Source: Methanomicrobiaceae archaeon (GTDB lineage: Archaea > Halobacteriota > Methanomicrobia > Methanomicrobiales > Methanomicrobiaceae). From it: a stretch of DNA of 64,000 bases. Every line of letters starts with the position of its first letter. Positions within the stretch are counted from its first letter, which is position 1. The notes under the pieces were generated by a model. That model saw nothing but the letters and a program-made list of their open reading frames with translations. It was not told where the DNA came from and did not search any database. Position numbers and translations under genes: made by a program. Below are positions 43,519-63,827 of this stretch, in pieces. The stretch covers positions 62,001 through 126,000 of the forward strand of contig JAFGNT010000021.1 in NCBI GenBank assembly GCA_016926855.1, in the 5' to 3' direction.

Positions 43519-44667
43519 ATGAAGAGCGAGAGAGCCGGAAGATTTGAAACTCAAAAAGCAGGCTATAATGCATTCATTCCCAAGCCACTGCCACCGGAGG
43601 GATTGGATGTAGATGAGGGACTTCAACTTTTATTATCGAAAGCAGACAGCACACTCGCAAGACTTGACGGAGTTACCTATATCCTTCCCAATCCGGACCT
43701 GTTTGTTGCAATGTACATTAAAAAGGAGGCTCTTTTAAGTTCACAAATAGAGGGAACACAGGCATCATTACAGGGAGTTCTTGAATTCGAAGCAAATATG
43801 AAGCCTAAAGAGGATATTAACGAAGTTATTGAAGTTATAAATTATATTAAAGCGATGGATCACGGAATTGAAAAACTTCAATTTTCAAGAATTTCAATTG
43901 AATTATTAAATGAAATCCATCGATTTTTAATAAAAGTCAGCAGAGGGACCCATAAACAGCCAGGACGGATAAGAGATGTACAAAATTGGATTGGGCCGCC
44001 CGGTGGGACAATTTTTGATGCCGTCTATATACCACCACCTCCCGGGATAGTAATGGAAACGATGAGAGATCTTGAAAAATTTATTCTCGCGAGCGATAAA
44101 TTACCTTCATTAATAAAGATTGCATTAATTCACGCCCAATTTGAGACCATACATCCATATCTGGATGGCAATGGGAGGATGGGGCGATTATTAATAACCT
44201 ATTATCTCTGTTGGAAAGGGATATTGTCACGTCCTCTGCTGTATCTGAGTATTTATCTCAAAAAAAACCGTGACGAGTATTATAAGCTGTTAAATCGTGT
44301 AAGATATGAAGGAGATTGGGAATCCTGGATAGAATTCTTTTTAAAGGGTATTATTGAAGTTTCGAACAATTCGATTGAAACTGCAAAAGACATTATTTTA
44401 CTGAAAAATAATCTCGTGGAAAAGCTGCTCCGGCACAATATTGGAGGCGTTTATGCCGTAAAACTCATCGATGTTCTTTTTGATAATCCGGTAATAACCG
44501 TAAAACAGGTTGCTGAATGTATTGGTACAAGCAGACAAACAGCGAACCTCCTGGTGAAAAAATTTGAAGAGAATGATATATTAGTTGAAATTACCGGGAA
44601 AAAGAGCTTTAAACAATATATGTTCGTGGATTATGTCTCAATTATTCAAAAAGGGACGCAGATGTAA
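43519..44667 (+). CDS. Fic-family protein (class II: N-terminal SSQIEG inhibitory motif) with C-terminal winged HTH
   Basis: HPYLDGNGRMGRLLITYYL catalytic motif; SSQIEGTQASL; C-terminal VKQVAECIGTSRQTANLLVKKFEENDIL. Confidence 0.93.
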   Translation: MKSERAGRFETQKAGYNAFIPKPLPPEGLDVDEGLQLLLSKADSTLARLDGVTYILPNPDLFVAMYIKKEALLSSQIEGTQASLQGVLEFEANMKPKEDINEVIEVINYIKAMDHGIEKLQFSRISIELLNEIHRFLIKVSRGTHKQPGRIRDVQNWIGPPGGTIFDAVYIPPPPGIVMETMRDLEKFILASDKLPSLIKIALIHAQFETIHPYLDGNGRMGRLLITYYLCWKGILSRPLLYLSIYLKKNRDEYYKLLNRVRYEGDWESWIEFFLKGIIEVSNNSIETAKDIILLKNNLVEKLLRHNIGGVYAVKLIDVLFDNPVITVKQVAECIGTSRQTANLLVKKFEENDILVEITGKKSFKQYMFVDYVSIIQKGTQM

Positions 44668-44931: not shown

Positions 44932-46194
44932 ATGACAGACGAGTTTATTGCGCTTGATATGTTTGCCGGTGGAGGTGGGCTTACAGAAGGATTTAACCGG
45001 GAAAACTTCGATTTTGCCGCACACATCGAGAAGGACCCTTCCGCCGCCCAGACCCTTGAGACGCGCCTGCATTATCATGAACTCGTTCGAAATGGTAATT
45101 CCGCACTTTATTCTGCATACTATAAGGGTAAAATCCCGCGTGATAGATTCATCCGTGAAGCAGAAACGCTTATGGCCGGGAATCATCCGGTTATTTGTGA
45201 GGAAATTACACAATCTACCGAAAAATCGATTATAAAAAAGATCAGGAATGATCTGAAGACAAATTTCGGCAGAAAGAGTGTTGATATCGTGATTGGCGGC
45301 CCTCCATGTCAAGCATATTCTCTTGTCGGAAGAGGGCGGGATCTGAACGGGATGGAGGATGACCCAAGGAACCACCTGTACAGGCATTATATACACTTCC
45401 TCCGCGAGTTTAAACCGGAAATATTTGTTTTTGAGAATGTTCCAGGAATTCGAAGTGCAAAGAAAGGAACAATTTTTTCCGATCTGCTTGCTAAGTGCAG
45501 TGATGCAGGATACACCCTTCAGGCGAATACCCTGAATGCAAAGGATTTCGGCGTCCTGCAGGACCGGAAACGTGTCATTATCATCGGATGGAAAAAGGAG
45601 CACGACTTTGAATATCCGGATTTTTCACAGGTTTCCCTGACAGGAAACGTTAGAGATCTGCTTAGAGATCTTCCGGTACTGCAGGCAGGAGAGGGTGAGG
45701 ATGCTTTTCAACGGTACCGCAGAGTGAAACCTGCAAAATATCTTATCGAAACCGGCATCAGAAACGGTTCTGGTGGCATCCGTCATCATGCTGCCCGGTT
45801 CCATAATGAAAGAGACCGGAAGATCTACCGGACCGCTATCATAAAGTGGTTCGAAAATGGAAAAAGACTGAAATACAACGAACTTCCTGAAGAACTTCAG
45901 GGTCATAAAAATAAATCTGCATTCCTTGATCGTTACAAGGTTGTTGACGAAAATAACAACTCTCATGCCGTTGTCGCGCATCTTGCAAAGGATGGGCACT
46001 ATTTCATTCATCCGGATATCCGGCAGGCACGATCACTGACGATCAGAGAAGCAGCACGGGTTCAGTCGTTTCCCGATGACTATCTCTTTGAAGGATCGCG
46101 GGGTGCGAAATATACCCAGATTGGTAATGCAGTTCCTCCACTAATGGCCGAGGGAATTGCACGGGAAATCAAACGTATGATCAGGATGACATAA
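44932..46194 (+). CDS. C5-cytosine-specific DNA methyltransferase
   Basis: Motif I FAGGGGLTEGF, motif IV GGPPCQAYS, ENVPG, QDRKRVIIIG, IGNAVPPLMAEGIA. Confidence 0.95.
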   Translation: MTDEFIALDMFAGGGGLTEGFNRENFDFAAHIEKDPSAAQTLETRLHYHELVRNGNSALYSAYYKGKIPRDRFIREAETLMAGNHPVICEEITQSTEKSIIKKIRNDLKTNFGRKSVDIVIGGPPCQAYSLVGRGRDLNGMEDDPRNHLYRHYIHFLREFKPEIFVFENVPGIRSAKKGTIFSDLLAKCSDAGYTLQANTLNAKDFGVLQDRKRVIIIGWKKEHDFEYPDFSQVSLTGNVRDLLRDLPVLQAGEGEDAFQRYRRVKPAKYLIETGIRNGSGGIRHHAARFHNERDRKIYRTAIIKWFENGKRLKYNELPEELQGHKNKSAFLDRYKVVDENNNSHAVVAHLAKDGHYFIHPDIRQARSLTIREAARVQSFPDDYLFEGSRGAKYTQIGNAVPPLMAEGIAREIKRMIRMT

Positions 46195-46280: not shown

Positions 46281-47789
46281 ATGAATTCCGGTATACCGGG
46301 CGCTTATGATATTGTGAATCCGGATCCCGGCGCTCTTATCGAATCCTTACGGGCTTTTGGGTACAATCTGGAGACTGCTGTTGCTGATCTGATTGACAAC
46401 AGTATTGCAGCAGGTACTCGAAATATTCATCTAGATTTCACTTGGAAAGGAGCAGAATCTACAATTTCAATCGTTGATGACGGCCATGGAATGTCAGAAG
46501 AGAGGCTGGTCAACGCAATGCGACCTGGCAGTAGCAATCCCCTTGACACCCGTGATCCTTCGGATCTCGGGCGTTTTGGTCTGGGTCTGAAAACAGCTTC
46601 CTTTTCTCAATGCCGGAAATTGACGGTCGGCTCAAAAGCTCCGGGAGATGCTATTGCCATTAGGAGCTGGGATCTGGATTATGTAAATAAATGTGGGGAA
46701 TGGCGCCTTCGCCGGGAGAACCCCGATTACGGAAATAAAATTTTTTCCTCCCTTGAGACCCGGAAAAGCGGAACAATTGTTCTCTGGGAAAATATGGACA
46801 GACTTGTTGGAGGTGCAGATCGTAATGATCCAAAGCGCAGAGACCTGTTTTACGAGCATGTAGATGCAGTTAAAAGTCATCTGGCGATGGTTTTCCATCG
46901 TTTCCTTGAGACCCGGAATGCTCTTCAGATATTTATCAACAATCGTCCTCTTGAACCGTGGGATCCCTTTATGAAAAATCATCCTGCAACCCAGCACCTC
47001 CCGGAAGAACCATTCAGTCATGTTGAACAGAAAATAATAGTCCGGCCATATGTTCTCCCACACCGTTCAAAACTTGATGATAAAACATTTGAACGGGCAG
47101 GTGGTCCGGGTGGCTGGAATGTCCGACAGGGATTTTACATATACCGCAATAATCGCCTGATTGTTGCTGGAGACTGGCTGGCCCTCGGTTTTAGAAAAGA
47201 GGCGCATACCAAACTCGCCCGTATCCTTGTGGATATCCCGAACTCAATGGATGATGACTGGAAGATTGATGTCAGAAAATCTGTTGCCCGTCCTCCCGCT
47301 CATCTCAGAGATGATTTCAAACGTATTGCCCGTCTGACGATTGAACGGGCAACAGCAGTGTACCGCCACCGAGGGAAGATTGTTGAACGTCAGACTGCAG
47401 GTGATTTTGTATTCCCGTGGAATACAAACGTCAGAAATGGCACATATTTCTATACAATCAATCGCAAGCACCCTCTTGTTGGAGCCGTTCTCGAGAATTC
47501 TGGTGATGATAAGAAGAAAACCGAGGCCATGCTGAGGTTGATCGAGGAGACCGTCCCAGTACCGACAATTATCCTGAATAGTACGGATAATCCGGACCGG
47601 CTTCACCGTCCTTTCGAAAACCGTCCATCAGAAGAGCTTCTTGCGGTGATGGAAGAGATCTGGATTTCCATGATAAGCACCGGGATGAATGCTGCTGAAG
47701 TAGGAAAAAGACTCACCAGTATGGAACCGTTTTGTGATTACCCGGAACAGGTCTCAGAATTTCTCGAATCGATGGAGGGAGAATTATAA
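46281..47789 (+). CDS. GHKL (MutL/MORC-like) ATPase of a modification-linked defence system
   Basis: ETAVADLIDNSIAA, IVDDGHGMSEERL, GRFGLGLKTAS Bergerat motifs. Confidence 0.9.
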   Translation: MNSGIPGAYDIVNPDPGALIESLRAFGYNLETAVADLIDNSIAAGTRNIHLDFTWKGAESTISIVDDGHGMSEERLVNAMRPGSSNPLDTRDPSDLGRFGLGLKTASFSQCRKLTVGSKAPGDAIAIRSWDLDYVNKCGEWRLRRENPDYGNKIFSSLETRKSGTIVLWENMDRLVGGADRNDPKRRDLFYEHVDAVKSHLAMVFHRFLETRNALQIFINNRPLEPWDPFMKNHPATQHLPEEPFSHVEQKIIVRPYVLPHRSKLDDKTFERAGGPGGWNVRQGFYIYRNNRLIVAGDWLALGFRKEAHTKLARILVDIPNSMDDDWKIDVRKSVARPPAHLRDDFKRIARLTIERATAVYRHRGKIVERQTAGDFVFPWNTNVRNGTYFYTINRKHPLVGAVLENSGDDKKKTEAMLRLIEETVPVPTIILNSTDNPDRLHRPFENRPSEELLAVMEEIWISMISTGMNAAEVGKRLTSMEPFCDYPEQVSEFLESMEGEL

Positions 47790-47809: not shown

Positions 47810-50545
47810 GTGTCACTGGTTCTTATGATGCTGACAGATAAGTCCAGTCCAACCCCTGAAACAATTCAGAAAAAGACGGATCTCGTGATTGGAATGCTGC
47901 AGGCGGAGGGAAATCCAGATTCCGTAGACAGGGACAGGTTAATCCGAGAGATTGAATCCCGCTGCGAGATCTGGCGGGGTTCGGCCACCGTACTGGAGAA
48001 TAAAAAAAATCACACTGTATGGCTTCCGTACAGGAAAAGTCAAATTGAATGGAAATTCTGGAAACGATATGAACGCTATCTGATGGAGAAGAAGAAATTC
48101 TCCGAACAGAGCATAATGACTTTGGATGACCTCACCGAACGGGTCCTTGAACGACTTGAAGATCCACAGCGGGAGGAATACTGGGACCGTCGTGGAATGG
48201 TGGTCGGGCATGTCCAGTCAGGGAAGACCGCGAATTATACGGGTCTCATTTGTAAAGCAGCCGATGCAGGATATAAACTTATTATCGTTCTCGCTGGTAT
48301 GCATAAAAGCCTTCGAAGTCAGACGCAGTTGCGTCTCGACGAGGGCTTCCTCGGATTTGATACTCAGCTGAATCGTGCATTTAATCAGGAAAATCTCCGG
48401 ATAGGTGTCGGAAGCCTCCCTGGAGAGGAATTTATAACGGTCCACTCCCTCACCAGCAGTGCTGACAGAGGTGACTTTAACCGAACAGTTGCATACCAAG
48501 TGGGTGTACTTCCGGGAGGAAGCGATCCTGTTCTACTCGTCGTCAAGAAGAACAAATCAGTTCTTGAAAACCTCATCAACTGGGCAATAAGTGTCAAGGG
48601 TGTTGAAGATCCCCGGACTCATAAGAAGATTGTCCACGGCATTCCACTCCTTATCATTGATGATGAAGCAGATAATGCATCAGTTAATATAAAAACAGTT
48701 CCCCAGGATGAAAACGGAGTCCCTCTGGAAGATTACGATGTCAGTGCAATAAATGGTAAAATCCGCTCCCTCCTCAGTCACTTTGAGATGAGCGCATATG
48801 TAGGCTATACTGCGACGCCGTATGCAAACATCTTCATATTTCCGGAGGGTGAGACATCAACTCATGGTGAAGATCTGTTCCCACGTGATTTCATTATCAA
48901 TCTCCCGACTCCACCGAATTACATAGGTCCGTCTCAGATTTTTGGTATTAACGGGTCTGATGGAGAGGAACAGAGTGGCCTCCCGGTAATCAGAGTTATA
49001 AATGACTATCACAGGTTCATGCCTGACTTTCATAAAAAGGAGCACAATCCGGAGAAGCTTCCGGACTCGCTAAAACAGGCGATTAAGACATTCATTATCT
49101 CTTGCGCAGCACGAATGGCAAGGGGCGAGCAGAAAAACCATAATTCAATGCTCGTTCATGTAACCCGCTTCACTGCTGTCCAGGAGAAAGTCGGCAGACT
49201 GGTCAATGACGAACTGACCGTAATCCGCAGACTGCTGGAGTATAGCGATCCTTCTTTTCCGGATGGTATATTCAGAGAAATGGAAAATATTTGGAATTCT
49301 GATTATATTCCGACTACAAACTCCATTCTTCAGCAGATCAGGGATCCCCTGATCACCGAACTGACTTGGAATGAAGTGGAGCGTTACCTTTTTGATGCGG
49401 CAGCCCGCATCCGGGTTAAACTGATAAACGGGACGGCAAGCGATTCACTGGACTATAATGAACATCCGGATGGCCTGAGCGTCATTACCATAGGGGGCGA
49501 TAAATTATCCCGTGGACTGACACTGGAGGGACTCAGTGTCAGCTATTACCTTAGGGCGTCACGGATGTATGACACCCTGATGCAGATGGGAAGATGGTTT
49601 GGATTCCGCCCGGGATACATCGATCTGTGCCGACTTTATACATCCCGGGATCTGGTCGAGTGGTATAAGCATATCAACTTTGCATCCGAGGAGTTACGGA
49701 GTGAGTTCGACTATATGGCAACCCTGAATGCCACTCCGTCCGATTACGGCCTCCGTGTCCGGACACACCCGGACGGGCTGCTTATTACCGCTGTCAACAA
49801 GATGCGGAATGGAACGGTTATGGATGTTTCGTATGCCAATTCCCTCATTGAAACAGTTTTCTTCCATAAGGATCCGGATATTCTCAGAAATAATCTGAAT
49901 GTGATCGATCATTTTATCCGGGATCTGGGCTCTTCATCCGATTCCTCCGGGCAGAATCTTCTCTGGAATAATGTACCGACATCCTCAGTTCTCGGAATGT
50001 TAAATGAGTATCTTATTCATGAGGCTTCCAGAAAGGCGAATCCGGGACTTCTGAAAGAATATATTGAGAAGCGTTCTTCCCAAGGTGAACTTATACACTG
50101 GACTGTTGCCCTGATCGACAACAGTAAGGCAACGCGGACTCTTTCCTTGGGTGGTCATCAAATTGGTCTCACCATACGCAGACCTGATGAAAATAATTCA
50201 TCAGATTCGAAGTATGCACTCAAAAAGGCGCACATTATCGATCCCAAACATGAATTCATCGACCTCACTCCTGAACTGGTTGAGGAGGCTCGCCAAATGA
50301 TGCTGGCTGATCCGAACAGAAATTCCCGTTCAGAGAAAGAACCGAAAGTTCCGAGCGGCCCGTACATCCGGAGGGTCCGGCCCCGGCAGCAGGGATTACT
50401 TCTTATATATCCCCTTGATCCCGATCCTCCGCAAGTCGAAGTTGCGGTGATGGGACTGGCATTCAGTATTCCAGACAGCCAGAGGGACGTGAAGGTGCAG
50501 TATCGGGTGAATAATATCTACTGGGAGCAGGAGTTTGGCAGCTGA
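47810..50545 (+). CDS. Z1-domain SF2-like helicase/ATPase
   Basis: GHVQSGKTANYTG (Walker A), LLIIDDEADNA, VGYTATPYAN, GGDKLSRGLTLEGLSVSYYLR, QMGRWFGFRPGYIDLCRLY. Confidence 0.94.
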   Translation: MSLVLMMLTDKSSPTPETIQKKTDLVIGMLQAEGNPDSVDRDRLIREIESRCEIWRGSATVLENKKNHTVWLPYRKSQIEWKFWKRYERYLMEKKKFSEQSIMTLDDLTERVLERLEDPQREEYWDRRGMVVGHVQSGKTANYTGLICKAADAGYKLIIVLAGMHKSLRSQTQLRLDEGFLGFDTQLNRAFNQENLRIGVGSLPGEEFITVHSLTSSADRGDFNRTVAYQVGVLPGGSDPVLLVVKKNKSVLENLINWAISVKGVEDPRTHKKIVHGIPLLIIDDEADNASVNIKTVPQDENGVPLEDYDVSAINGKIRSLLSHFEMSAYVGYTATPYANIFIFPEGETSTHGEDLFPRDFIINLPTPPNYIGPSQIFGINGSDGEEQSGLPVIRVINDYHRFMPDFHKKEHNPEKLPDSLKQAIKTFIISCAARMARGEQKNHNSMLVHVTRFTAVQEKVGRLVNDELTVIRRLLEYSDPSFPDGIFREMENIWNSDYIPTTNSILQQIRDPLITELTWNEVERYLFDAAARIRVKLINGTASDSLDYNEHPDGLSVITIGGDKLSRGLTLEGLSVSYYLRASRMYDTLMQMGRWFGFRPGYIDLCRLYTSRDLVEWYKHINFASEELRSEFDYMATLNATPSDYGLRVRTHPDGLLITAVNKMRNGTVMDVSYANSLIETVFFHKDPDILRNNLNVIDHFIRDLGSSSDSSGQNLLWNNVPTSSVLGMLNEYLIHEASRKANPGLLKEYIEKRSSQGELIHWTVALIDNSKATRTLSLGGHQIGLTIRRPDENNSSDSKYALKKAHIIDPKHEFIDLTPELVEEARQMMLADPNRNSRSEKEPKVPSGPYIRRVRPRQQGLLLIYPLDPDPPQVEVAVMGLAFSIPDSQRDVKVQYRVNNIYWEQEFGS

Positions 50546-51560
50546 AGGTTTTGACCGGATTTGGACAGATTTGGAGCAGCACGCCACAGTCACTGCCAGA
50601 GAAGGCATTCTCACGCTGAGAGTACTTCCTGACTCAGGGTTCGATTTCCTACTCGGTATTCAGAGACCAGAGAATATACGGATGCTTCTAATCCGTATCA
50701 GCCGGGAAAACGTAATCAACCAGTGGTCGCTCCCGCGTTTAAAAGGCTTTGAAGTCAGGCAGGCCGTTCTACCGGAAGATCGGGGGCACTATGCAACAAT
50801 TCAGCTGGTCCTGAACGATCGCCGCTATCAGGATATCTTCTCGCGGCTTACGGAGGATGTTGCGTCATCGTGTTCCCGGGAGTTTTCGGAGAAGGCAATG
50901 ATCCGGGCTCTATTCCAACGGCTGGAGATGTGGCAACAGTTCCTTGACCGGTATGGAGGGGAGGGATTGAGTCCTGCTGCACAACGGGGCCTGTATGGCG
51001 AACTCAGGTTCCTCTTTGACTATTTTATACCTGCTGTTGGTGCTGAACAGGCTGTTTCAGCATGGACGGGACCACATAAGACACAGCAGGATTTCCAGAT
51101 GTCCGGCATTGCTATTGAGGTAAAGACCAGCACCGCCAAGCAACATCAGAAAGTATCAATCGCAAGTGAACAACAGCTCGATGATATAGGACTTGATGGT
51201 CTGTATCTTTACCATCTCTCAATCCGGGAAATACATGACGGGGGTGAAACATTACCGGGGATAATCGACGGTATCCGGAACCTCCTCGCAGAAAATCCTA
51301 CTGCATCAGCTCCATTTGAAAATTTACTATTTCGTGCAGGCTATCTCGATGAACACCGGATGAAATATGAGGAAACAGGTTACACGGATCGGTCAACACA
51401 GGTATTTTTCATCGGGGAGAATTTTCCCAGAATTATCGAGCGGGATCTCATGAGCGGCATCGGGGATGTTCAGTATTCGGTAAGCCTGGCCGCCTGTGCC
51501 CCGTTTACAATGAATGATGAAGATTTCAGGGACATTATTGCACGGTGCAGACATGAGTGA
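50535..51560 (+). CDS. PD-(D/E)XK motif protein (DUF4420-like)
   Basis: GLYGELRFL, GPHKTQQDFQMSGIAIEVKTSTAKQHQKVSIASEQQL; overlaps the Z1 gene end. Confidence 0.9.
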   Translation: MAAEGFDRIWTDLEQHATVTAREGILTLRVLPDSGFDFLLGIQRPENIRMLLIRISRENVINQWSLPRLKGFEVRQAVLPEDRGHYATIQLVLNDRRYQDIFSRLTEDVASSCSREFSEKAMIRALFQRLEMWQQFLDRYGGEGLSPAAQRGLYGELRFLFDYFIPAVGAEQAVSAWTGPHKTQQDFQMSGIAIEVKTSTAKQHQKVSIASEQQLDDIGLDGLYLYHLSIREIHDGGETLPGIIDGIRNLLAENPTASAPFENLLFRAGYLDEHRMKYEETGYTDRSTQVFFIGENFPRIIERDLMSGIGDVQYSVSLAACAPFTMNDEDFRDIIARCRHE

Positions 51561-53673
51561 CTCAGACTTCGAACAGTTTGCTGAAAGTTTTCATCAGGAC
51601 ATTATTTCATACTCACGTGACGCTGATACAGAATCGTTCACCGAAGATCAGTTCACCGAACTGATGCTGGAGTATATGGCTGACGCAGGTGAAATCGATG
51701 ACCGCGAAAAATGTTCCCATCAGTCCCGTGGTATCAAGGTTAACGGTTATGCCTTAAGTAATGATAATGAGAATCTGGATCTTTTTGTCTCAATTTATAA
51801 AGGCGAATGTCCGCCCACAAAGGTTTCGAAGACCGAGATTTCCACTCAGATCAAGCGGCTCAGGACTTTTTTTGACAGAGCATTACGCAGGGATTATTCA
51901 ACGCTTGAAGACTCATCCCCTGCATTTGATCTGGCTGACAAGATATACCAGTCCCGGAATGACCTCAGCCTGATTCGACTATTTGTACTGACCGATGGTA
52001 TTGCAAACGTTGACGTAATTAAAGATGATATCGCCGGCCCCTATAGGATCTCACATCATGTCTGGGATATACAGAGGCTCTACCGGTTGCGGAGTTCCGG
52101 CAGTCGGCCAGAGCCGATAGAGATCGATTTTGAAGGTGAATTCGGGAGATCGGTTCCCTCCCTCCCGATGCCGGATGAAAATTCGGTTTATTCCAGTTAT
52201 CTATTCATCCTCTCCGGTGACACTCTTGCGGATCTGTACGGTAAATTCGGACCCAGACTTCTTGAAAGGAATGTACGCGCCTATCTCCAGATGCGTGGTG
52301 GCGTCAACAAGGGTATTCGGGATACAATCATCAATGAACCTCATATGTTTCTTGCCTATAACAACGGCATCTCTACGACAGCCAAAAATATCGAACTGAT
52401 TGATTTACCCAATGGAATCCTTGCAATACGCCGTATCTGTGATTTTCAGATAGTTAATGGTGGTCAGACAACAGCATCTATCTATCACACTCGCACGAAA
52501 GACAAACAGAATGTTTCCCGTGTCTATGTTCAGGTCAAGCTGACTGTGCTGAAAAATCCGGATAATGTCGACTCAATCGTTCCGAAGATATCCGAATGCG
52601 CCAACAGCCAGAACAAGATTAATGCTGCCGATTTCACCTCCAATGATCCCTTTCATATCCACATCCAGAAGATCTCCCGTTCACTATGGGCTCCGGCAAA
52701 GCGGGGGAGCCAGCAGGAGACCCATTGGTATTATGAGCGGGTACGCGGGCAGTATCAGGATGATAAAGGGCGTGAGAAAACACCAAAACAGAGAAAAATA
52801 TTTGGTGAAAGGAACCCGACAGGGCAGCGGTTTACCAAGACCGATCTCGCCAAGTTTGAGAACTCATGGGATCTGCTCCCACATATCGTCAGCCTCGGAG
52901 CAGAGAAGAACTACCGTGAGTTCATCGACCAATACCGTAACCTCGGGGAATTCGAGCCCGATGCCGATTATTACCGTCTTCTTATTGCGAAAGCAATTCT
53001 ATTCAGACGAACGGATAAGATTGTCCAGAGCCTGAAGTTCGGCGGCTATAAGGCAAATATCGTTACCTACACGATAGCCCTTCTGTCACTACATACAAAG
53101 CAACGTATTAATCTCGAACGGATCTGGAAGGAACAGGCACTATCGCAGGCTCTTGAAGAGACAATTATCAATCTCTCAAGGATTGTACAGGCTCATATCA
53201 CTAGCCCGCCGGGAGGAAAGAACATCACAGAATGGTGTAAGAAGGAGGATTGCTGGAAATCGCTGCAAATCACGGAGATTGAACTGCCGGATGCGCTGAC
53301 TGCAGAACTGGTCGATGAAAACGCTGTCAGAGCGCGTGATATCAGGGCCAGACAGAAAGCAGGGATTATCCCGGAAACTGATGATGAACAGGTAGCGGAT
53401 TCGTCGGGAGGATCGGATGCCGGAAGTCAGACATCCCTATCTGAAAATGACCAGTACATCCGGAATCTCACTCCTCAAAAATGGCTGAAAATTATCCGGG
53501 AGGCAACTGAGGCAGATATGTTTGCTCCGAAGCAGATTTCACTTCTCAGGCGGATGCAGAAGCTGTCAGGTAGAAAAATAAAACCGAATACGTATCAACT
53601 TGAGGGGACCCGGGAAATCCTGTTGGCTCTGGCAGAAGAGCACCGATATAGCACAGATGAAGCTGAAAACTGA
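51553..53673 (+). CDS. AIPR (abortive infection phage resistance)-family protein
   Basis: FLAYNNGISTTAKNIE, IVNGGQTTASIYHTR, ECANSQNKINAADFTSNDPFH; start overlaps the preceding stop. Confidence 0.92.
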   Translation: MSDSDFEQFAESFHQDIISYSRDADTESFTEDQFTELMLEYMADAGEIDDREKCSHQSRGIKVNGYALSNDNENLDLFVSIYKGECPPTKVSKTEISTQIKRLRTFFDRALRRDYSTLEDSSPAFDLADKIYQSRNDLSLIRLFVLTDGIANVDVIKDDIAGPYRISHHVWDIQRLYRLRSSGSRPEPIEIDFEGEFGRSVPSLPMPDENSVYSSYLFILSGDTLADLYGKFGPRLLERNVRAYLQMRGGVNKGIRDTIINEPHMFLAYNNGISTTAKNIELIDLPNGILAIRRICDFQIVNGGQTTASIYHTRTKDKQNVSRVYVQVKLTVLKNPDNVDSIVPKISECANSQNKINAADFTSNDPFHIHIQKISRSLWAPAKRGSQQETHWYYERVRGQYQDDKGREKTPKQRKIFGERNPTGQRFTKTDLAKFENSWDLLPHIVSLGAEKNYREFIDQYRNLGEFEPDADYYRLLIAKAILFRRTDKIVQSLKFGGYKANIVTYTIALLSLHTKQRINLERIWKEQALSQALEETIINLSRIVQAHITSPPGGKNITEWCKKEDCWKSLQITEIELPDALTAELVDENAVRARDIRARQKAGIIPETDDEQVADSSGGSDAGSQTSLSENDQYIRNLTPQKWLKIIREATEADMFAPKQISLLRRMQKLSGRKIKPNTYQLEGTREILLALAEEHRYSTDEAEN

Positions 53674-53690: not shown

Positions 53691-54110
53691 TCAGGATTCA
53701 AGAATCCGAACGATTTCTGCCACAACACTCTCAGGATCCTTCCTCACCCGGTGCTCCCAGAAACGTAGGACTTTCCATCCATCGGTCTCCAACTTCTGAT
53801 TTACGTCGTGATCCCGCTTAACATTTGCATCAATTTTATTCATCCAAAATTCTTTCCGGGTCTGAGGTTCCTGAAAACATTCTGGACATTTATGCCAAAA
53901 ACAGCCGTCGATAAAAATTGCTATCCGCTTTTTAATAAAAACAATATCTGGCTTCCCGGGGAGCTTGTAATGTACCCTGTAGCCCTGTATGCCTCGTGTA
54001 TAAAGCATCTTCCGGATCTTCAGCTCCGGGGAGGTGTCTTTACCCCGAATCCTAGACATGTTGTATTTTCGTTGTTCCTTGGTTAGAACATCTACCATTG
54101 TCCATTTCAA
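53691..54110 (-). CDS. vsr: Very-short-patch mismatch repair endonuclease Vsr
   Basis: RKYNMSRIRGKDTSPELKIRKMLY, GKPDIVFIKKRIAIFIDGCFWHKCP, WKVLRFWEH. Confidence 0.95.
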   Translation of the reverse strand: MKWTMVDVLTKEQRKYNMSRIRGKDTSPELKIRKMLYTRGIQGYRVHYKLPGKPDIVFIKKRIAIFIDGCFWHKCPECFQEPQTRKEFWMNKIDANVKRDHDVNQKLETDGWKVLRFWEHRVRKDPESVVAEIVRILES

Positions 54111-54291: not shown

Positions 54292-54753
54292 CTACCCGGA
54301 CGTGAGGGAGTCGATATACCGGTAGAAATCGATCTTTCCCAGAAATCGTTCTACGGCCGGAATCCCTCCGTCACGATAGAGGCCGCCGATGATCGCTTTG
54401 AAGCATTCCGCAAGTGTTACGGAACCTTTCTTCTCCCAGTTCCGTTGATTCATCTCATTGCTGCTCCAGAGCACGGCCTCATCGAGCTTCAGGTAATCCC
54501 GTGAGATTTTCTGGAGGGTCTCGTTATTCCCGTATTTCATCCGTTTTTTATCATAATATTTGAGTTCGGAGTTTTCAGGGGTGAAAAAACGGGTAAAAAT
54601 GCAAAAATCAAGGACGGCACCTCCCAATATATCAAGCCCTTTCTGGTGTTTCATGCCGGGAGTGTCTTTTACTACCCGGTCTTTTCGCGTAATGCTCTGA
54701 AGATACAGTTCCTGATCGTTAAAAGAACGGGAAAGGATTTGATTGATATCCAT
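54292..54753 (-). CDS. RNase III-fold protein with apparently inactivated catalytic positions, no dsRBD
   Basis: KGLDILGGAVLDFCIFTRFF and NETLQKISRDYLKLDEAVLW...SVTLAECFKAIIGGLYRDGGIPAVERFLG align to RNase III signature regions. Confidence 0.65.
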   Translation of the reverse strand: MDINQILSRSFNDQELYLQSITRKDRVVKDTPGMKHQKGLDILGGAVLDFCIFTRFFTPENSELKYYDKKRMKYGNNETLQKISRDYLKLDEAVLWSSNEMNQRNWEKKGSVTLAECFKAIIGGLYRDGGIPAVERFLGKIDFYRYIDSLTSG

Positions 54754-54828
54754 ATGTAATCGACCTCCCTTTTTCTCTCCTGCCACTATCAAGATATCCC
54801 CGGGGGCGGCCTTGGTTACTTTCATCGG

Positions 54829-54940
54829 TTACCCGTCACTTTTTTCCAGGTACCTCTTGTACCACACAAACCATGGTGTGTCCAGGAATCCGATGATATT
54901 CTTGGCCACGATCTGGCCGATGATGAGGGGTAAAAGAGGG
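54829..54940 (-). pseudogene. C-terminal remnant of an integral membrane protein (possibly VUT/queuosine-precursor-transporter-like)
   Basis: Minus frame reads PLIIGQIVAKNIIGFLDTPWFVWYKRYLEKSDG*, with no intact upstream frame. Confidence 0.45.
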
Positions 54941-55231: not shown

Positions 55232-58200
55232 ATGGTCGAGCTATCAGAAGAATTAGAAAAACTTCGTTTAAATTTACTAGATCAGACATTAAGAAATGGA
55301 TTGTTAAATTATCGTACTTCAAAAAGGCGGACCATAGAGATTGTTGATGAAAGTCTGAAAGAGTTATATGACATTCTTGTTCTTCAAGAAAAATCAATGC
55401 GGTTCAAAGCTACAAAACTCGAGAAAGAGGATGTTTCTGGGAAAACGGCACCTGAAGAAGAAAGCACAGCACCGAGAATCTGGCAAAAGAATGATCCATC
55501 TGAAAAAGAATCCGAGCTTTTTTTTGATAATTTTCTTAACACGCCCTATAATTTTGAAGACCTGAATAAACGTCTTTTTTATGCATATAACCAATCAAAA
55601 TCAATTTTCGAGGAACAGGGATACTCAGTACTCTATATAGCTCTCGGTTTTTTGGAATGGAAGGAATCGACTCTTTCTGGTAAATCAATGAAGGCACCAT
55701 TGATCCTCGTACCTATTGAACTTACAAGAACTGGTGAGAAGAGGATTTTTTCGCTTAAATGGACAGGCGACGACATTTATACAAATCTTACCCTTCAAGG
55801 AAAACTTGACGTTATCGGTGTTCGTCTTCCTGAATTTGAGATGCCGGAGGACAAATCAGGAATTGATGAATATTTTGAAGCCATTATTGACGCAATTGAT
55901 GAACAGAGTGAATGGAGAGTTCTTGATGAAAGCTCTGTTGATTTCTTCAATTTCCGAAAATTTGTAATGTATAAAGATCTGGACCCGGCAACATGGCCTA
56001 AAGGTGAATCGCCTGCGGATCATGACCTGATTCGGGACATTTTTGATCCACAACCCGCAGAACCGAATGATTACGTAATATCTGAGGATGAAGTGGATGA
56101 GAAAGTCAATCTGTTTACTTCATACAATATCCTTGATGCCGACTCTTCTCAGATTGCTGCAATTCAAGCTGTAATTGGAGGGAAAAACCTCGTAGTTCAG
56201 GGTCCTCCGGGAACCGGAAAGTCACAGACTATCGCGAATATCATTGCAGAGCTCCTAGCTATCGGGAAATCTGTGCTTTTTGTCAGTGAAAAAATGGCCG
56301 CACTTGAGGTTGTGAAATCTCGTCTGGATAAGTCGGATTTAGGGGATTTTTGTCTTGAATTGCATAGTCATAAAGCAAAAAAGACGGCAGTTCTTGAAGA
56401 ATTGCGAAGATCAATCAACTTAGAGAGCCCGTCAAAATATGAAAATGACCAAGAAATTCATGAACTAGAAGACCTAAAAAGGGAGTTAAATGCATACGTT
56501 ACCACAGTTCACACGCCGATTGGAAAACTCGGACTCTCACCGTTTGAATTATTTTCGTTAAAAGCAAAAACAGAGTCCCATTTTCAATATCATGGACGTC
56601 GTATGCAAAACATACGCATTCTCAACTCCGAATCATGCACCAAAGAACAATGGCTGAATACAATAGTTACTCTTAAAAATATTCAGGAAATTCTTACAAT
56701 TCTCGGATCAATAAACGATAATCCGTGGAGAGGATGTAATCCGGGAATGATTCTTCCTCCCGAAAGAAATCGTATCAATGACGACATTGATGAATCTCTT
56801 GCACAATATGAGATGTTACTTCGAAATTCTCAGGCTTTATACGAATGCAGCGGTATTATGCCTCCTGTTTCAGGGACGGACATTAATTCAAGATACGAAG
56901 CTGCAGAAAGAATTGCCAATGCGCCTCAAGTCACCGAAGAAATGCTGAAAACTTCTGAATGGGATAGAGAGTCACCCGCATATTTAGGTGAAATACTTAA
57001 TAAAATTGAGACATATAATTCTTTAAAACAAGAAATTATTAGAATTTTTAACGATTCAGTATTTGATGTTGATTTCCGTGAATTCATTGAAAAATATAAT
57101 CATTTGATGAAACGAGCCAGACAAGAATTTTCCTCATATTACGATTCGACACCAAATGATTTCGAAAGTATATATTCTCATCTCAAGTTTCTCGGGAGGC
57201 ACAAGTCATTAAAGTCCGCGATTATCTCCTTCGACGAACAAAGTCAGCATATATTTGGAAAATACTGGCTTGGTCCCAAGAGCAATCCGCAACAGCTGAA
57301 AGATTTTAAAGAGTTTTGCCTGAGATTTTACTATTTGTTGAAAAAAGACCTTGTTCCCCAAAATTCTGTAATATTCCTTGAAAATGGAATAAGTGCCAAT
57401 ATTTTAAAAAACATTGAAAATTCAGATGAAATAGCAGAGCTGATTCAGTATATTGAGCAATATCATCAATTGAAATGCAGTGTCAACGCAATATTCAATC
57501 CGACAATCCTGAATGAAGATATTGAAAATTTGCGTGAAGAATACAGCAAGCATTCAAAAAAGATTTTCAAAATAATCTCTTTCCGTTATAAAAATTTAAA
57601 ATCATTAATTACGCAATATTATCTTACCCCTCCAATAGATGATGCCCAAATTTTACAGGATCTCAATCAGGCTAATGAATTGAGCCGGATTCAACAGTTG
57701 ATCAAATCAAGGAATGAGGTGGGATTTGCTTATTTTGGTAATTACTGGAAAGGACCTGAATCGAATGTCCGGCAATTATCTGAGATAAGTGAATTGGCCA
57801 GATGCCTTACGGATGAGTTGAACAGAGGCAGAATTAAGGATACCATATTATCATTGATTTCTGAAGGAATTCCTGGAGAAATTCTGGGAAATTCATCTTG
57901 GGACACTCATATAGAGGAAATTGATACCGTTATTGCAAATCTTGCTGAATTTCAAGATCTCGATAAAATGATCAAATCAATATTCGACGGAGCAATTGAA
58001 AAAACTGATATTCATGAGTATCTTTTTGAATTCGATGACTATTCAAATGAAATAAAAGATACCGTTGCCCCTTACTATTGTGGTGAGGGGACATTCAACG
58101 TAGATATTGTAATCAGTTATCTCGAAGATGTGGCGAAGGCAAAAGAGATTGACAGTGATCTTAGAGAATCTCCCGAAGGATTACAATTATTTGGTGTACA

Positions 58201-60895
58201 TTGGAACGGCGTTAACTCAGATATAAATCTTCTCAAAGATTACTCTGAATGGATTGTGCATTTCAGGCATTTATTCAATTCTGGTGTTTTTTCAGAGTTA
58301 TCGATCCAAAAAATTGTTGAAGGAAATGCGCATAAAGATGTGCTTGATATCGAATGTCAAGTAGACAATTCAAGTAGGGAATTTCTGGAGTTAATTCGAA
58401 ATATCTCGGAATGCATCAATGCAAATCTTCTAGAGGTTTTTGGTGACGATATCGAGTCAGTGAAATATGAACTGCTGCATTCAAAGTTGATAGCATGGTC
58501 AGATTCAATATCCTTATTAGAAAAATGGGGCCTGTATCTAGACCGCCGGAAAAAAATTGACGCAACAATAGCCGCCCCACTTGGAAAATTGGTTGATGAA
58601 GAAGAAATAGAATTCATAGATATAATTCCAGCATTCGAAGGAAATTTTGCCGATGCGTTGTTGAGAGTTGCGTTTGTAAACACACCGTTACTTGCAACTT
58701 TTTTGAGGGAAATTCATGTACGAAAAATTGAAAAGTTCAGAGAATTGGATAAAAGGATCATTGAAGGTAATCGAAAGCGTCTTATTGTTAAGGCTTTTTC
58801 ATATAAACCCGAAATCATCACAGGTGTTTCTCGAAACTCTGAAGTTGGGATATTATTAGGAGAATTACACCGCAAACGGCGGATAATGCCTATCAGGAAG
58901 CTTATGCTCAAGGCAGGGAAGCTGATTCAAGGTATCAAACCCTGTTTCATGATGAGCCCATTATCAATCGCTCAATTCCTCGATCCCCATTCAATCGAGT
59001 TTGACGTAGTGCTTTTTGACGAGGCAAGTCAGGTCAGACCAGAAGATGCTCTTGGAGCAGCGTTAAGAGGGAAACAATTAGTCGTGATGGGAGATTCACG
59101 ACAGTTACCCCCAACTCGTTTCTTTGACGTTCTGGTCGATTCTCAAGAAGATGAGGAAGAGGAAACCGCACTTGCAGGTGATATGGAGAGTATTTTGAAT
59201 TTATGCAAGGGAAGCTTCATGACAAAGACTCTCCGCTGGCATTACCGTTCTCGTCATGAATCTCTGATTGCGGTATCAAATCAGGAATTCTATGATAACC
59301 GTTTGTATGTATATCCCTCCCCTATGCATGATTCTCCGGAGTTGGGGCTTAAATTTGTCCATCTCCCAGAAGCAGTATATGATCGTGGAAAGAGCGGGGT
59401 AAATCGCATTGAGGCCCAGAGAGTTGCACGAATGGCCGTGGAGCATTTCAAAAAATATCCGAGGAAAACACTAGGTATTGGCACATTTAATGTAAAACAA
59501 CAAGAAGCTATTCTGGAAGAAATCGAGGTATTAGTTAATCAGGATCCCGTCATTGAGCAGTTCTTTAAAAATGATGCTGGTGAAGACTTCTTTGTCAAAA
59601 ACATCGAAACGATACAGGGCGATGAGCGTGATGTCATCATTGTGAGTGTCGGGTTTGGATTTGATAGGCATGGAAAATTATCGAAGAATTTTGGCCCCAT
59701 AAACCAAGACGGAGGGGAGCGGAGACTCAACGTTCTGATGACTCGCGCAAGAGAGAAATGTGTGATTGTCGCGAATTTCACCGCAAGAGATTTGCAGATT
59801 GATTCTCATGCTCCGTTTGGTTTGAGGTCGCTGAAAGTATTCCTGGAATTTGCTGAGAGTGGTACTCTTACAACAATAGAGCGACCACTCGAAGATACAG
59901 AATCTCCGTTTGAAGAGGCTGTATATGAGTTCCTGCGGGATTCAGGTTATGAGGTACACAAACAGGTTGGTTGCGCGGGCTATCGAATTGATCTTGCGGT
60001 TGTCGACCCTGCGCAAGCCGGACAGTATATCATTGGAATTGAATGTGATGGTGCTCAATATCACGCTTCGAAGGTGGCACGCGATCGCGACAGGCTCCGA
60101 CAGGATGTTCTCGAAGGCCTTGGGTGGACAATATACAGAGTATGGTCAACAGACTGGTATCGTAATCGGCACGGTGCAAAGGAGGCACTCCTCAAAGCGG
60201 TGGAAAGAGCTAAATCGGCCGCAAAAAATGGATTTGTATATGAAAAACAAGACATTTCTGACATAATAGAAACAACGGTTGAAGATGATAGCGAAGAAGA
60301 AATTCAAGCGATTGAAAAAGAAACCATTCTTCCTTCTCTTGAAGACCTTGTAAGAGAATATGAATATTATACATCATTAGATCTGCCTCATTCTCCCGAT
60401 TTGACAGGTATTAATGATACTCGCCTTATTAAGGCAGTCGTATCCTTAGTTGAACATGAGGGTCCAATCCACAGGGAAGCAGTAATACAAAGGATATGCG
60501 ATAATTGCGGAGTAAAACGAATCGGGAAAAGAATAAGAGAACTTGTCGATCATATGATTGAAAATGCACTTGATCGAGGGAGAATTCTTTCAAAGGGTAA
60601 TTTCTTATGGCCACCGGGCATGGAAAGATGCAGATCAATCCTCCGAAAAAGGACGAATGGGGAAACGCTTAACATTGATTGGATATCTCCTGAAGAAATT
60701 GCTGAGGCGATAATCTTTATCTTGGAACATCAGCATTCGACCCAGATGGAAGATCTCATAACACAAACCTCTAGAATTCTTGGTTTTAAGAAAACCCGAA
60801 AGAATGTTCAAAGTTCGATAAAAAAGCAGATCCATAAGATGCTAAGGAAACATGAGTTGCATAAATTGCCAAACGGAATGCTGAATATCAAATAG
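55232..60895 (+). CDS. Giant DUF4011 - SF1 helicase - Vsr-like (MTES_1575) REase - DUF3320 defence protein (Hhe-like)
   Basis: GPPGTGKSQTIANIIAELL, FDEASQVRPEDALGAALRGKQLVVMGDSRQLPPT, RRLNVLMTRAREKCVIVAN, C-terminal YRIDLAVVDPAQAGQYIIGIECDGAQYHASKVARDRDRLRQDVLEGLGWTIYRVWSTDWYRN. Confidence 0.92.
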   Translation: MVELSEELEKLRLNLLDQTLRNGLLNYRTSKRRTIEIVDESLKELYDILVLQEKSMRFKATKLEKEDVSGKTAPEEESTAPRIWQKNDPSEKESELFFDNFLNTPYNFEDLNKRLFYAYNQSKSIFEEQGYSVLYIALGFLEWKESTLSGKSMKAPLILVPIELTRTGEKRIFSLKWTGDDIYTNLTLQGKLDVIGVRLPEFEMPEDKSGIDEYFEAIIDAIDEQSEWRVLDESSVDFFNFRKFVMYKDLDPATWPKGESPADHDLIRDIFDPQPAEPNDYVISEDEVDEKVNLFTSYNILDADSSQIAAIQAVIGGKNLVVQGPPGTGKSQTIANIIAELLAIGKSVLFVSEKMAALEVVKSRLDKSDLGDFCLELHSHKAKKTAVLEELRRSINLESPSKYENDQEIHELEDLKRELNAYVTTVHTPIGKLGLSPFELFSLKAKTESHFQYHGRRMQNIRILNSESCTKEQWLNTIVTLKNIQEILTILGSINDNPWRGCNPGMILPPERNRINDDIDESLAQYEMLLRNSQALYECSGIMPPVSGTDINSRYEAAERIANAPQVTEEMLKTSEWDRESPAYLGEILNKIETYNSLKQEIIRIFNDSVFDVDFREFIEKYNHLMKRARQEFSSYYDSTPNDFESIYSHLKFLGRHKSLKSAIISFDEQSQHIFGKYWLGPKSNPQQLKDFKEFCLRFYYLLKKDLVPQNSVIFLENGISANILKNIENSDEIAELIQYIEQYHQLKCSVNAIFNPTILNEDIENLREEYSKHSKKIFKIISFRYKNLKSLITQYYLTPPIDDAQILQDLNQANELSRIQQLIKSRNEVGFAYFGNYWKGPESNVRQLSEISELARCLTDELNRGRIKDTILSLISEGIPGEILGNSSWDTHIEEIDTVIANLAEFQDLDKMIKSIFDGAIEKTDIHEYLFEFDDYSNEIKDTVAPYYCGEGTFNVDIVISYLEDVAKAKEIDSDLRESPEGLQLFGVHWNGVNSDINLLKDYSEWIVHFRHLFNSGVFSELSIQKIVEGNAHKDVLDIECQVDNSSREFLELIRNISECINANLLEVFGDDIESVKYELLHSKLIAWSDSISLLEKWGLYLDRRKKIDATIAAPLGKLVDEEEIEFIDIIPAFEGNFADALLRVAFVNTPLLATFLREIHVRKIEKFRELDKRIIEGNRKRLIVKAFSYKPEIITGVSRNSEVGILLGELHRKRRIMPIRKLMLKAGKLIQGIKPCFMMSPLSIAQFLDPHSIEFDVVLFDEASQVRPEDALGAALRGKQLVVMGDSRQLPPTRFFDVLVDSQEDEEEETALAGDMESILNLCKGSFMTKTLRWHYRSRHESLIAVSNQEFYDNRLYVYPSPMHDSPELGLKFVHLPEAVYDRGKSGVNRIEAQRVARMAVEHFKKYPRKTLGIGTFNVKQQEAILEEIEVLVNQDPVIEQFFKNDAGEDFFVKNIETIQGDERDVIIVSVGFGFDRHGKLSKNFGPINQDGGERRLNVLMTRAREKCVIVANFTARDLQIDSHAPFGLRSLKVFLEFAESGTLTTIERPLEDTESPFEEAVYEFLRDSGYEVHKQVGCAGYRIDLAVVDPAQAGQYIIGIECDGAQYHASKVARDRDRLRQDVLEGLGWTIYRVWSTDWYRNRHGAKEALLKAVERAKSAAKNGFVYEKQDISDIIETTVEDDSEEEIQAIEKETILPSLEDLVREYEYYTSLDLPHSPDLTGINDTRLIKAVVSLVEHEGPIHREAVIQRICDNCGVKRIGKRIRELVDHMIENALDRGRILSKGNFLWPPGMERCRSILRKRTNGETLNIDWISPEEIAEAIIFILEHQHSTQMEDLITQTSRILGFKKTRKNVQSSIKKQIHKMLRKHELHKLPNGMLNIK

Positions 60896-62495: not shown

Positions 62496-63827
62496 ATGAA
62501 AATACCTGAAAAACCCCGTGATCCGAATGTAATTATTGAAAATATGGGGGAAGAGTTCTCCAATTTTTTTCTGGCATACAGTATTGGAGATGAAAAATCC
62601 GCCGGGATCCGGGAATACGTACGGAAGTACAATGAGCTGCATTATTCTCACTGGGATGATCTCAAACGAAAAAAAATCCCTTACGATACAGAATTGTTCT
62701 GGCTGCTCCTGAAGGTTCTTCGAAGGGAAAGATTCACTAAAATCGGGATCGGGGACGAAACTTTCACATTTGTCATGCTTGGAAAATTCCAGCGAAAGCT
62801 CCATCAGATTGACAAAGAGTCGCCTGCACCGATAGACGGACTGACAGGAGAAAAGCCGGGCGAAGCGAGCAAACGGCAGTATTTGTCCAATTCAATCATG
62901 GAGGAGGCGATCGCTTCAAGCCAGCTGGAAGGCGCAGCGACAACGAGGGCGATTGCGAAAAAGTTCCTGCGGGAAGGCAAATCTCCGCGGAACAAATCCG
63001 AGCGGATGATCCTGAACAACTACCGGACGATTCAGAAGCTGAAGGAGATAAAGGACCTCCCGCTCTCCCTGGACCTGATCACCGATATTCACATGGAGAT
63101 TACCAACGGAACGTTGGAGAAACGGGACGATGAAATCTTCTTCCGGACGAGTGATGATATAGTTGTCCGGGACAGGGCGGACTATACCAAAATCTATCAT
63201 CAGCCGCCAAGCTTTGAAGCAGTCCCGGCAATGCTCGATAACCTCTGTACTTTTGCCAATGACGATGAGATATTTATCCACCCGATACTCAAGGCAATCA
63301 TCATCCACTTCCTTATCGGGTATATTCATCCTTTCAATGACGGCAACGGGAGGACTGCTCGTGCATTATTCTACTGGTACGTGCTGAAAAACGGCTACTC
63401 CCTCTTCGAGTATCTTTCAATATCCCGGATATTCGTACATTCCCCTGCAAAATATGCCCGGGCATACCTGTACACCGAAAATGATGAAAACGACATGACC
63501 TATTTCGTCGAGTTCAATCTCGATAGTATCAGCCGGGCAATGGATGAGCTTAAAACGTATATTGAGGAGAGTCAGGCCGAACAACGGGAAGCAATCCGCC
63601 TTGCCGGGGCAATTCCGGGCGTCTCGTTCCGGCAGGCGGAAATCCTCAAGGATTTCATCAGCCACCCCGACCGTTCGTATGCAATCAGCGAGATGGCGGG
63701 CAAGTACAAAGTGTCGATGCCGACGGCGAGGAGTGATCTGCTTACGCTTGAAGGACTCGGGAAACTCAGAAAAATCAAAGACGGGAAACGATGGGTCTTC
63801 CTGTTGAGCGACACATGGGCACAATGA
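62496..63827 (+). CDS. Fic-family protein (class II: SSQLEG) with C-terminal winged HTH
   Basis: HPFNDGNGRTARALFYWYVL; EAIASSQLEGAATTRAIAKKFL; AISEMAGKYKVSMPTARSDLLTLEGLGKLRK. Confidence 0.95.
   Translation: MKIPEKPRDPNVIIENMGEEFSNFFLAYSIGDEKSAGIREYVRKYNELHYSHWDDLKRKKIPYDTELFWLLLKVLRRERFTKIGIGDETFTFVMLGKFQRKLHQIDKESPAPIDGLTGEKPGEASKRQYLSNSIMEEAIASSQLEGAATTRAIAKKFLREGKSPRNKSERMILNNYRTIQKLKEIKDLPLSLDLITDIHMEITNGTLEKRDDEIFFRTSDDIVVRDRADYTKIYHQPPSFEAVPAMLDNLCTFANDDEIFIHPILKAIIIHFLIGYIHPFNDGNGRTARALFYWYVLKNGYSLFEYLSISRIFVHSPAKYARAYLYTENDENDMTYFVEFNLDSISRAMDELKTYIEESQAEQREAIRLAGAIPGVSFRQAEILKDFISHPDRSYAISEMAGKYKVSMPTARSDLLTLEGLGKLRKIKDGKRWVFLLSDTWAQ

Follow-up and report, generated by a model that had tools for sequence, protein, structure and literature searches.

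Gene content of the locus

The window (the whole stretch of 64,000 nucleotides that was analysed) contained an RNase III-like gene on the reverse strand at positions 54292-54753, with the stop codon included and the frame read from 54753 to 54292. Based on Pfam, alignment, AlphaFold and Foldseek, the gene encodes a protein of 153 aa which has an RNase III domain only and is predicted to be catalytically dead. The frame is open throughout, and a good ribosome-binding site is provided by a Shine-Dalgarno-like GGAGGT (54763-54768, reverse strand) found in the sequence 5' of the ATG at 54753. An alternative ATG at 54825 would produce a protein of 177 aa. The start at 54753 was preferred because of its ribosome-binding site and because the extra 24 residues showed no likeness to the N-termini of relatives. 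The protein is about 20 N-terminal residues shorter than those of clade B, the group of relatives described below.

The initial annotation had placed this gene between two defence systems, and both were identified here. The left-hand system was MZA, with all of its genes on the forward strand; a C5-cytosine DNA methyltransferase (44932-46194; Pfam DNA_methylase 7e-62, PADLOC DrmMII/MTase_II), MzaB with a HATPase domain (46281-47789; PADLOC PDLC02204, 8.5e-119), MzaC with a Z1 domain (47810-50545; PDLC02205, 7e-225), MzaD with DUF4420 of the PD-(D/E)XK type (50535-51560; PDLC02206, 1e-29; NCBIfam NF041934, 2.2e-51, below cut-off) and MzaE with an AIPR domain (51514-53673; PDLC02207, 9e-102; Pfam AIPR). 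The left neighbour of the RNase III-like gene was a Vsr-type DNA mismatch endonuclease on the reverse strand (53691-54110; Pfam Vsr 2.6e-25; TIGR00632 9.2e-42, above cut-off). The right neighbour was a divergent gene on the forward strand (55232-60895) for a helicase-nuclease of 1887 aa, assigned by PADLOC and NCBIfam to the Hhe/PDC-S37/ProA type (PADLOC PDC-S37 E=0 and Hhe 4e-213; NCBIfam ProA and Hhe both below cut-off). In addition, two related Fic-family proteins were observed at 43519-44667 and 62496-63827, one on either side of the MZA-Hhe region.

A truncated relic (54829-54936) lies between the two defence systems, in the same orientation as the RNase III-like gene and directly upstream of it. 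The relic consists of the last 35 codons and the stop of a gene for a membrane protein of about 240 aa. It was recognised by comparison with other genomes, since it shares 91% identity with the C-terminus of an intact protein of about 240 aa in a member of the family (G108) and 88% in G085 and G089; we take it to resemble a VUT/queuosine-precursor transporter. No intact copy was found in the host genome (89% complete), where the relic was the sole match. The truncated transporter-like gene indicates that the spot between MZA and the Hhe-type system has been disrupted.

Fold and active site of the RNase III-like protein

The protein matched Pfam PF14622 (5.5e-10, 39.9 bits against a cut-off of 35) and PF00636 (8.5e-10, 39.8 bits against a cut-off of 27), and since both scores exceed the curated cut-offs the likeness to RNase III is well above chance. 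A phmmer search of the PDB gave E. coli RNase III at 8e-6 over residues 6-138, and the two signature regions aligned likewise. The AlphaFold model, built with 29 sequences as input, had a mean pLDDT of 93.3 and a pTM of 0.90. Foldseek against the PDB matched it to RNase III nuclease domains with a probability of 1.00 (TMq 0.70-0.79 for the top seven), the best matches being from Campylobacter, E. coli and Thermotoga, together with the RNase III domain of Dicer. The mitoribosomal chains 6ywe_9 and 5mrc_9 were among the weaker matches, none of the 50 best PDB matches was named as Mini-III, and the viral matches were RNase III of giant viruses, iridoviruses and ascoviruses. A chance similarity to RNase III was ruled out by Pfam, phmmer and Foldseek, and the likeness across both signature regions proposed in the initial annotation was borne out by these results and by the predicted structure. 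The absence of a following double-stranded RNA-binding domain (dsRBD), also claimed there, was found as well; the protein ends directly after the RNase III domain and produced no dsRBD match, and its nearest relatives are likewise without one. Overall, the protein is predicted with high confidence to be a complete RNase III domain and nothing else. E. coli RNase III relies on its dsRBD to reach its RNA, and strong dsRNA binding is not to be assumed for a protein that lacks it.

Alignment with E. coli RNase III showed that positions 38, 41, 45, 65, 114 and 117 are occupied by K, D, G, L, E and K, so that all five substitutions listed beforehand (E38K, E41D, D45G, D114E and E117K) were correct. 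E65 is also lost while E100 is kept. The metal ligands E41, D45, D114 and E117 thus read D, G, E and K, which is not the set of a catalytic RNase III, and the score with TIGR02191, the equivalog model of catalytic RNase III, reached 36.5 bits where the curated cut-off is 166.25. Among the E. coli mutants tabulated in PMC8708148 (Table 1), rnc70 (E117K) binds dsRNA but shows no activity either in vivo or in vitro, and D45A lacks activity in vivo. RNA cleavage is therefore predicted to be lost with the two essential metal ligands D45 and E117, and cleavage by the standard metal-dependent mechanism would be very unlikely. Gly45 is encoded by GGT and Lys119, at the E117 position, by AAA; each is a single transition away from Asp or Glu codons, which would allow for a recent inactivation.

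Compared with bacterial RNase III (E. coli Rnc, TIGR02191), the protein shares the fold and the signature regions and carries the rnc70 substitution, but it has no dsRBD and has also lost D45, E38 and E65. Catalytic loss in an RNase III fold that is kept for a non-cleaving role is known for the mitoribosomal proteins mL44 and mL57. Maize RNC1 has likewise lost catalysis and is kept for a non-cleaving role (PMC8708148). However, RNC1 and the mitoribosomal proteins are conserved within their respective lineages and differ in architecture, whereas the protein in the window is a singleton. Mini-III of Bacillus and cyanobacteria is also a stand-alone RNase III domain without dsRBD, but it is catalytic and matures 23S rRNA (PMC8708148), and its intact site is lost here.

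Relatives in Methanomicrobiales

At 1e-3, the protein matched 127 of the 232 genomes of the order, and an alignment of clade B matched 165 of the 232 at 1e-6; most of these order-wide matches belonged to clade A or to other RNase III types. A maximum-likelihood tree of 70 rows, including 14 of clade B, recovered clade B as a single group (bootstrap/SH-aLRT 100/97) with the protein of the window inside it, and clades A and B as sister groups (96/93). Clade A is a widespread single-domain form of RNase III in Methanomicrobiales, in which D45 and E117 were kept in 18/18 sequences, all of them with E38D, D114E and a changed position 41 (A, once C). Clade B is a patchy group with 15 copies in the 232 genomes, mostly in relatives of Methanoregula (the named loci are from Methanoregula, Methanoregulaceae and unclassified Methanomicrobiales MAGs). 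The protein of the window was the deepest row of clade B and had its longest end branch, at 1.34 changes per column.

Among the aligned clade B relatives, D45 was kept in 13/13 and E117 in 12/13, D114 and E41 were variable, and E38 and E65 were essentially absent. The protein in the window, placed in clade B by the tree, is thus the sole member without D45. The single relative without E117 (L013/L084, Methanoregula sp. PtaB.Bin085) carries D114G and E117K with D45 kept, and its E117K arose separately because the sister of this pair keeps E117 in the tree. The other clade B members, with D45 and E117 in place, are probably active dsRNA nucleases. A conserved family of pseudo-RNase III was ruled out since the relatives keep this catalytic pair, and the RNA-binding or regulatory pseudo-RNase III suggested in the initial annotation was not upheld as a conserved part of archaeal defence.

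No close orthologue was found in the genomes, viral contigs, phages or plasmids searched. A viral, phage or plasmid origin was rejected, as no relative was present in viral contigs or phages and the plasmid search produced only ordinary Klebsiella rnc (E 3e-4). Little was found in the archaeal literature. The host genome also holds a clade A copy with intact D45 and E117 (G000:C22:53936-54331), which adjoins genes that by eye are pdxT-like and peptidyl-prolyl isomerase-like. A third, remote RNase III-like protein of the host was observed at G000:C27:243677-243955 (L143); it has 237 aa with an N-terminal extension and the motifs GDAALK and TLVES, scored 31.6 bits with Pfam, under the cut-off of 35, and adjoins a flavoprotein-like gene.

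Clade B showed pairwise dN/dS values of 0.05-0.22 in six usable pairs, which indicates purifying selection and that the clade as a whole is maintained. Its possible link to defence genes was seen at 4/7 other clade B loci with long context, where strong PADLOC matches (E<1e-50) were present; PbeA/PbeC at L032, DpdF at L039, a helicase at L042, and PDC-S41 and PDC-S02 at L044. At L034, with short context, a NERD-UvrD helicase lies directly upstream and two HsdM genes downstream. HepT was also among the defence genes near these five loci, most of which keep the catalytic pair. The same look at 10 clade A loci showed no strong PADLOC match. The difference between the clades gave a Fisher P of 0.015 without the window locus and 0.007 with it, in a small sample in which the largest neighbour genes were chosen and the clade B loci were viewed before the clade A control. 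It is suggestive only of a tendency of clade B to sit near defence genes, with no constant partner.

Predicted inactivation, decay and possible function

When 31 sequences of clades A and B were compared, 20 positions were conserved in 85% or more of them; the protein has lost seven of these 20, among them D45, E117 and G97 as well as four within the first helices. The non-catalytic conserved positions that were altered include 17, 20, 25, 29 and 97. Much of the core of the fold remains, with W96, W106, A115, Y126, G130 and L138 in place. In neutral simulations run until seven losses, 8% of the runs kept a stop-free frame, or 1% when frameshifts were counted at 0.05 indels per substitution; with two losses the values were 50% and 31%. 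Since the simulated neutral runs seldom kept an open frame, purely neutral drift throughout this branch is unlikely, while the open frame would fit a recent release from selection quite well. A decaying fragment had been anticipated in the event that homologues elsewhere retained the catalytic residues. Those homologues do keep the pair, but the gene is not a decayed fragment, as the sequence and the AlphaFold model showed the entire domain in an open frame.

On balance, we consider it probable that the gene is a lone, fast-evolving, inactivated copy of clade B that is tied to neither neighbouring system and is most likely under relaxed selection. Its parent family would be a small accessory clade scattered in Methanoregula-like methanogens, often in defence-rich regions, and the gene would have landed, or been left, in the disrupted spot between MZA and the Hhe-type system with no demonstrable tie to either. 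RNA cleavage by this complete single-domain protein would have been lost with D45 and E117 through missense changes; the product would still fold and may keep at most weak dsRNA binding or dimerisation. A one-off inactivated copy is preferred over a new conserved regulator because the relatives keep their RNA-cutting residues.

The principal competing explanation, to which we give appreciable weight while regarding it as unlikely, is a pseudoenzyme maintained by selection, in which the dead domain would dimerise and bind dsRNA, or pair with the active clade A RNase III in mixed dimers that are inactive, and so protect transcripts or sense viral dsRNA. The open frame, the good ribosome-binding site, the confident predicted fold and the improbability of neutral drift over the whole branch would all suit such a role, as would the intact clade A paralogue in the same genome and the independent loss of D114 and E117 in another clade B member. 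The E110K substitution of Aquifex RNase III presumably corresponds to E117K of E. coli. The Aquifex E110K protein has been solved with dsRNA (1rc7, 1yyo), and in E. coli the E117K protein still binds but no longer cuts, with dominance over the wild type (PMC8708148). However, no relative has the substitutions of this protein, several conserved non-catalytic positions are lost too, there is no dsRBD for strong RNA binding, and gene debris adjoins the gene. Judged on this one sequence, relaxed selection is more likely than a selected non-catalytic role. The more specific proposal that the dead stand-alone domain, from a defence-island RNase III family of methanogens, is kept as a dsRNA-binding decoy or dominant-negative partner of the active single-domain RNase III of the host is doubtful.

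Two further explanations were given very little weight. Residual nuclease activity would require D41, E100, E114 or other acidic residues to hold one metal ion for weak cleavage; these three positions are acidic and clade A, with E41A and D114E, is presumably functional, but a positive charge at 117 and a glycine at 45, together with the complete loss of activity of E117K in vivo and in vitro despite all other ligands (PMC8708148), make this very improbable. A working component of MZA or of the Hhe-type system is the least credible, although the gene is placed between the two and shares its strand with vsr, from which it lies 181 bp upstream. The strand is opposite to both operons, a clade B gene was present in 0/14 other MzaC genomes and 0/33 other PDC-S37 genomes of the order, and within the order no clade B genome except the host had MzaC or PDC-S37. 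The search for conserved neighbours that had been proposed also showed none consistently shared among the clade B loci, and membership of either system was rejected on these counts.

A separate observation was made in a genus of the same order (g19 of family f4, L154-L183), which is probably Methanoculleus. A full-length RNase III of about 258 aa, with the domain and what reads as a dsRBD, was present in 33/35 genomes and had D45 replaced by N in 29/29 sequences read, with E38, E41, D114 and E117 kept and a median dN/dS of 0.20. A paralogue (L190, L192) was 45% identical and also had N45, with N at 114. A catalytic substitution fixed across an archaeal genus may possibly be more interesting than the protein of the window.

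Overall, the protein of the window alone is a singleton inactivated enzyme, and the families around it matter more. Methanomicrobiales have a widespread single-domain RNase III with two of its four metal ligands changed, and the accessory RNase III that tends to sit near defence genes and the genus-fixed D45N in a full-length RNase III are further material for tests. Together, these families offer a test of whether RNase III serves archaea against dsRNA, and of how small a part of the active site suffices.
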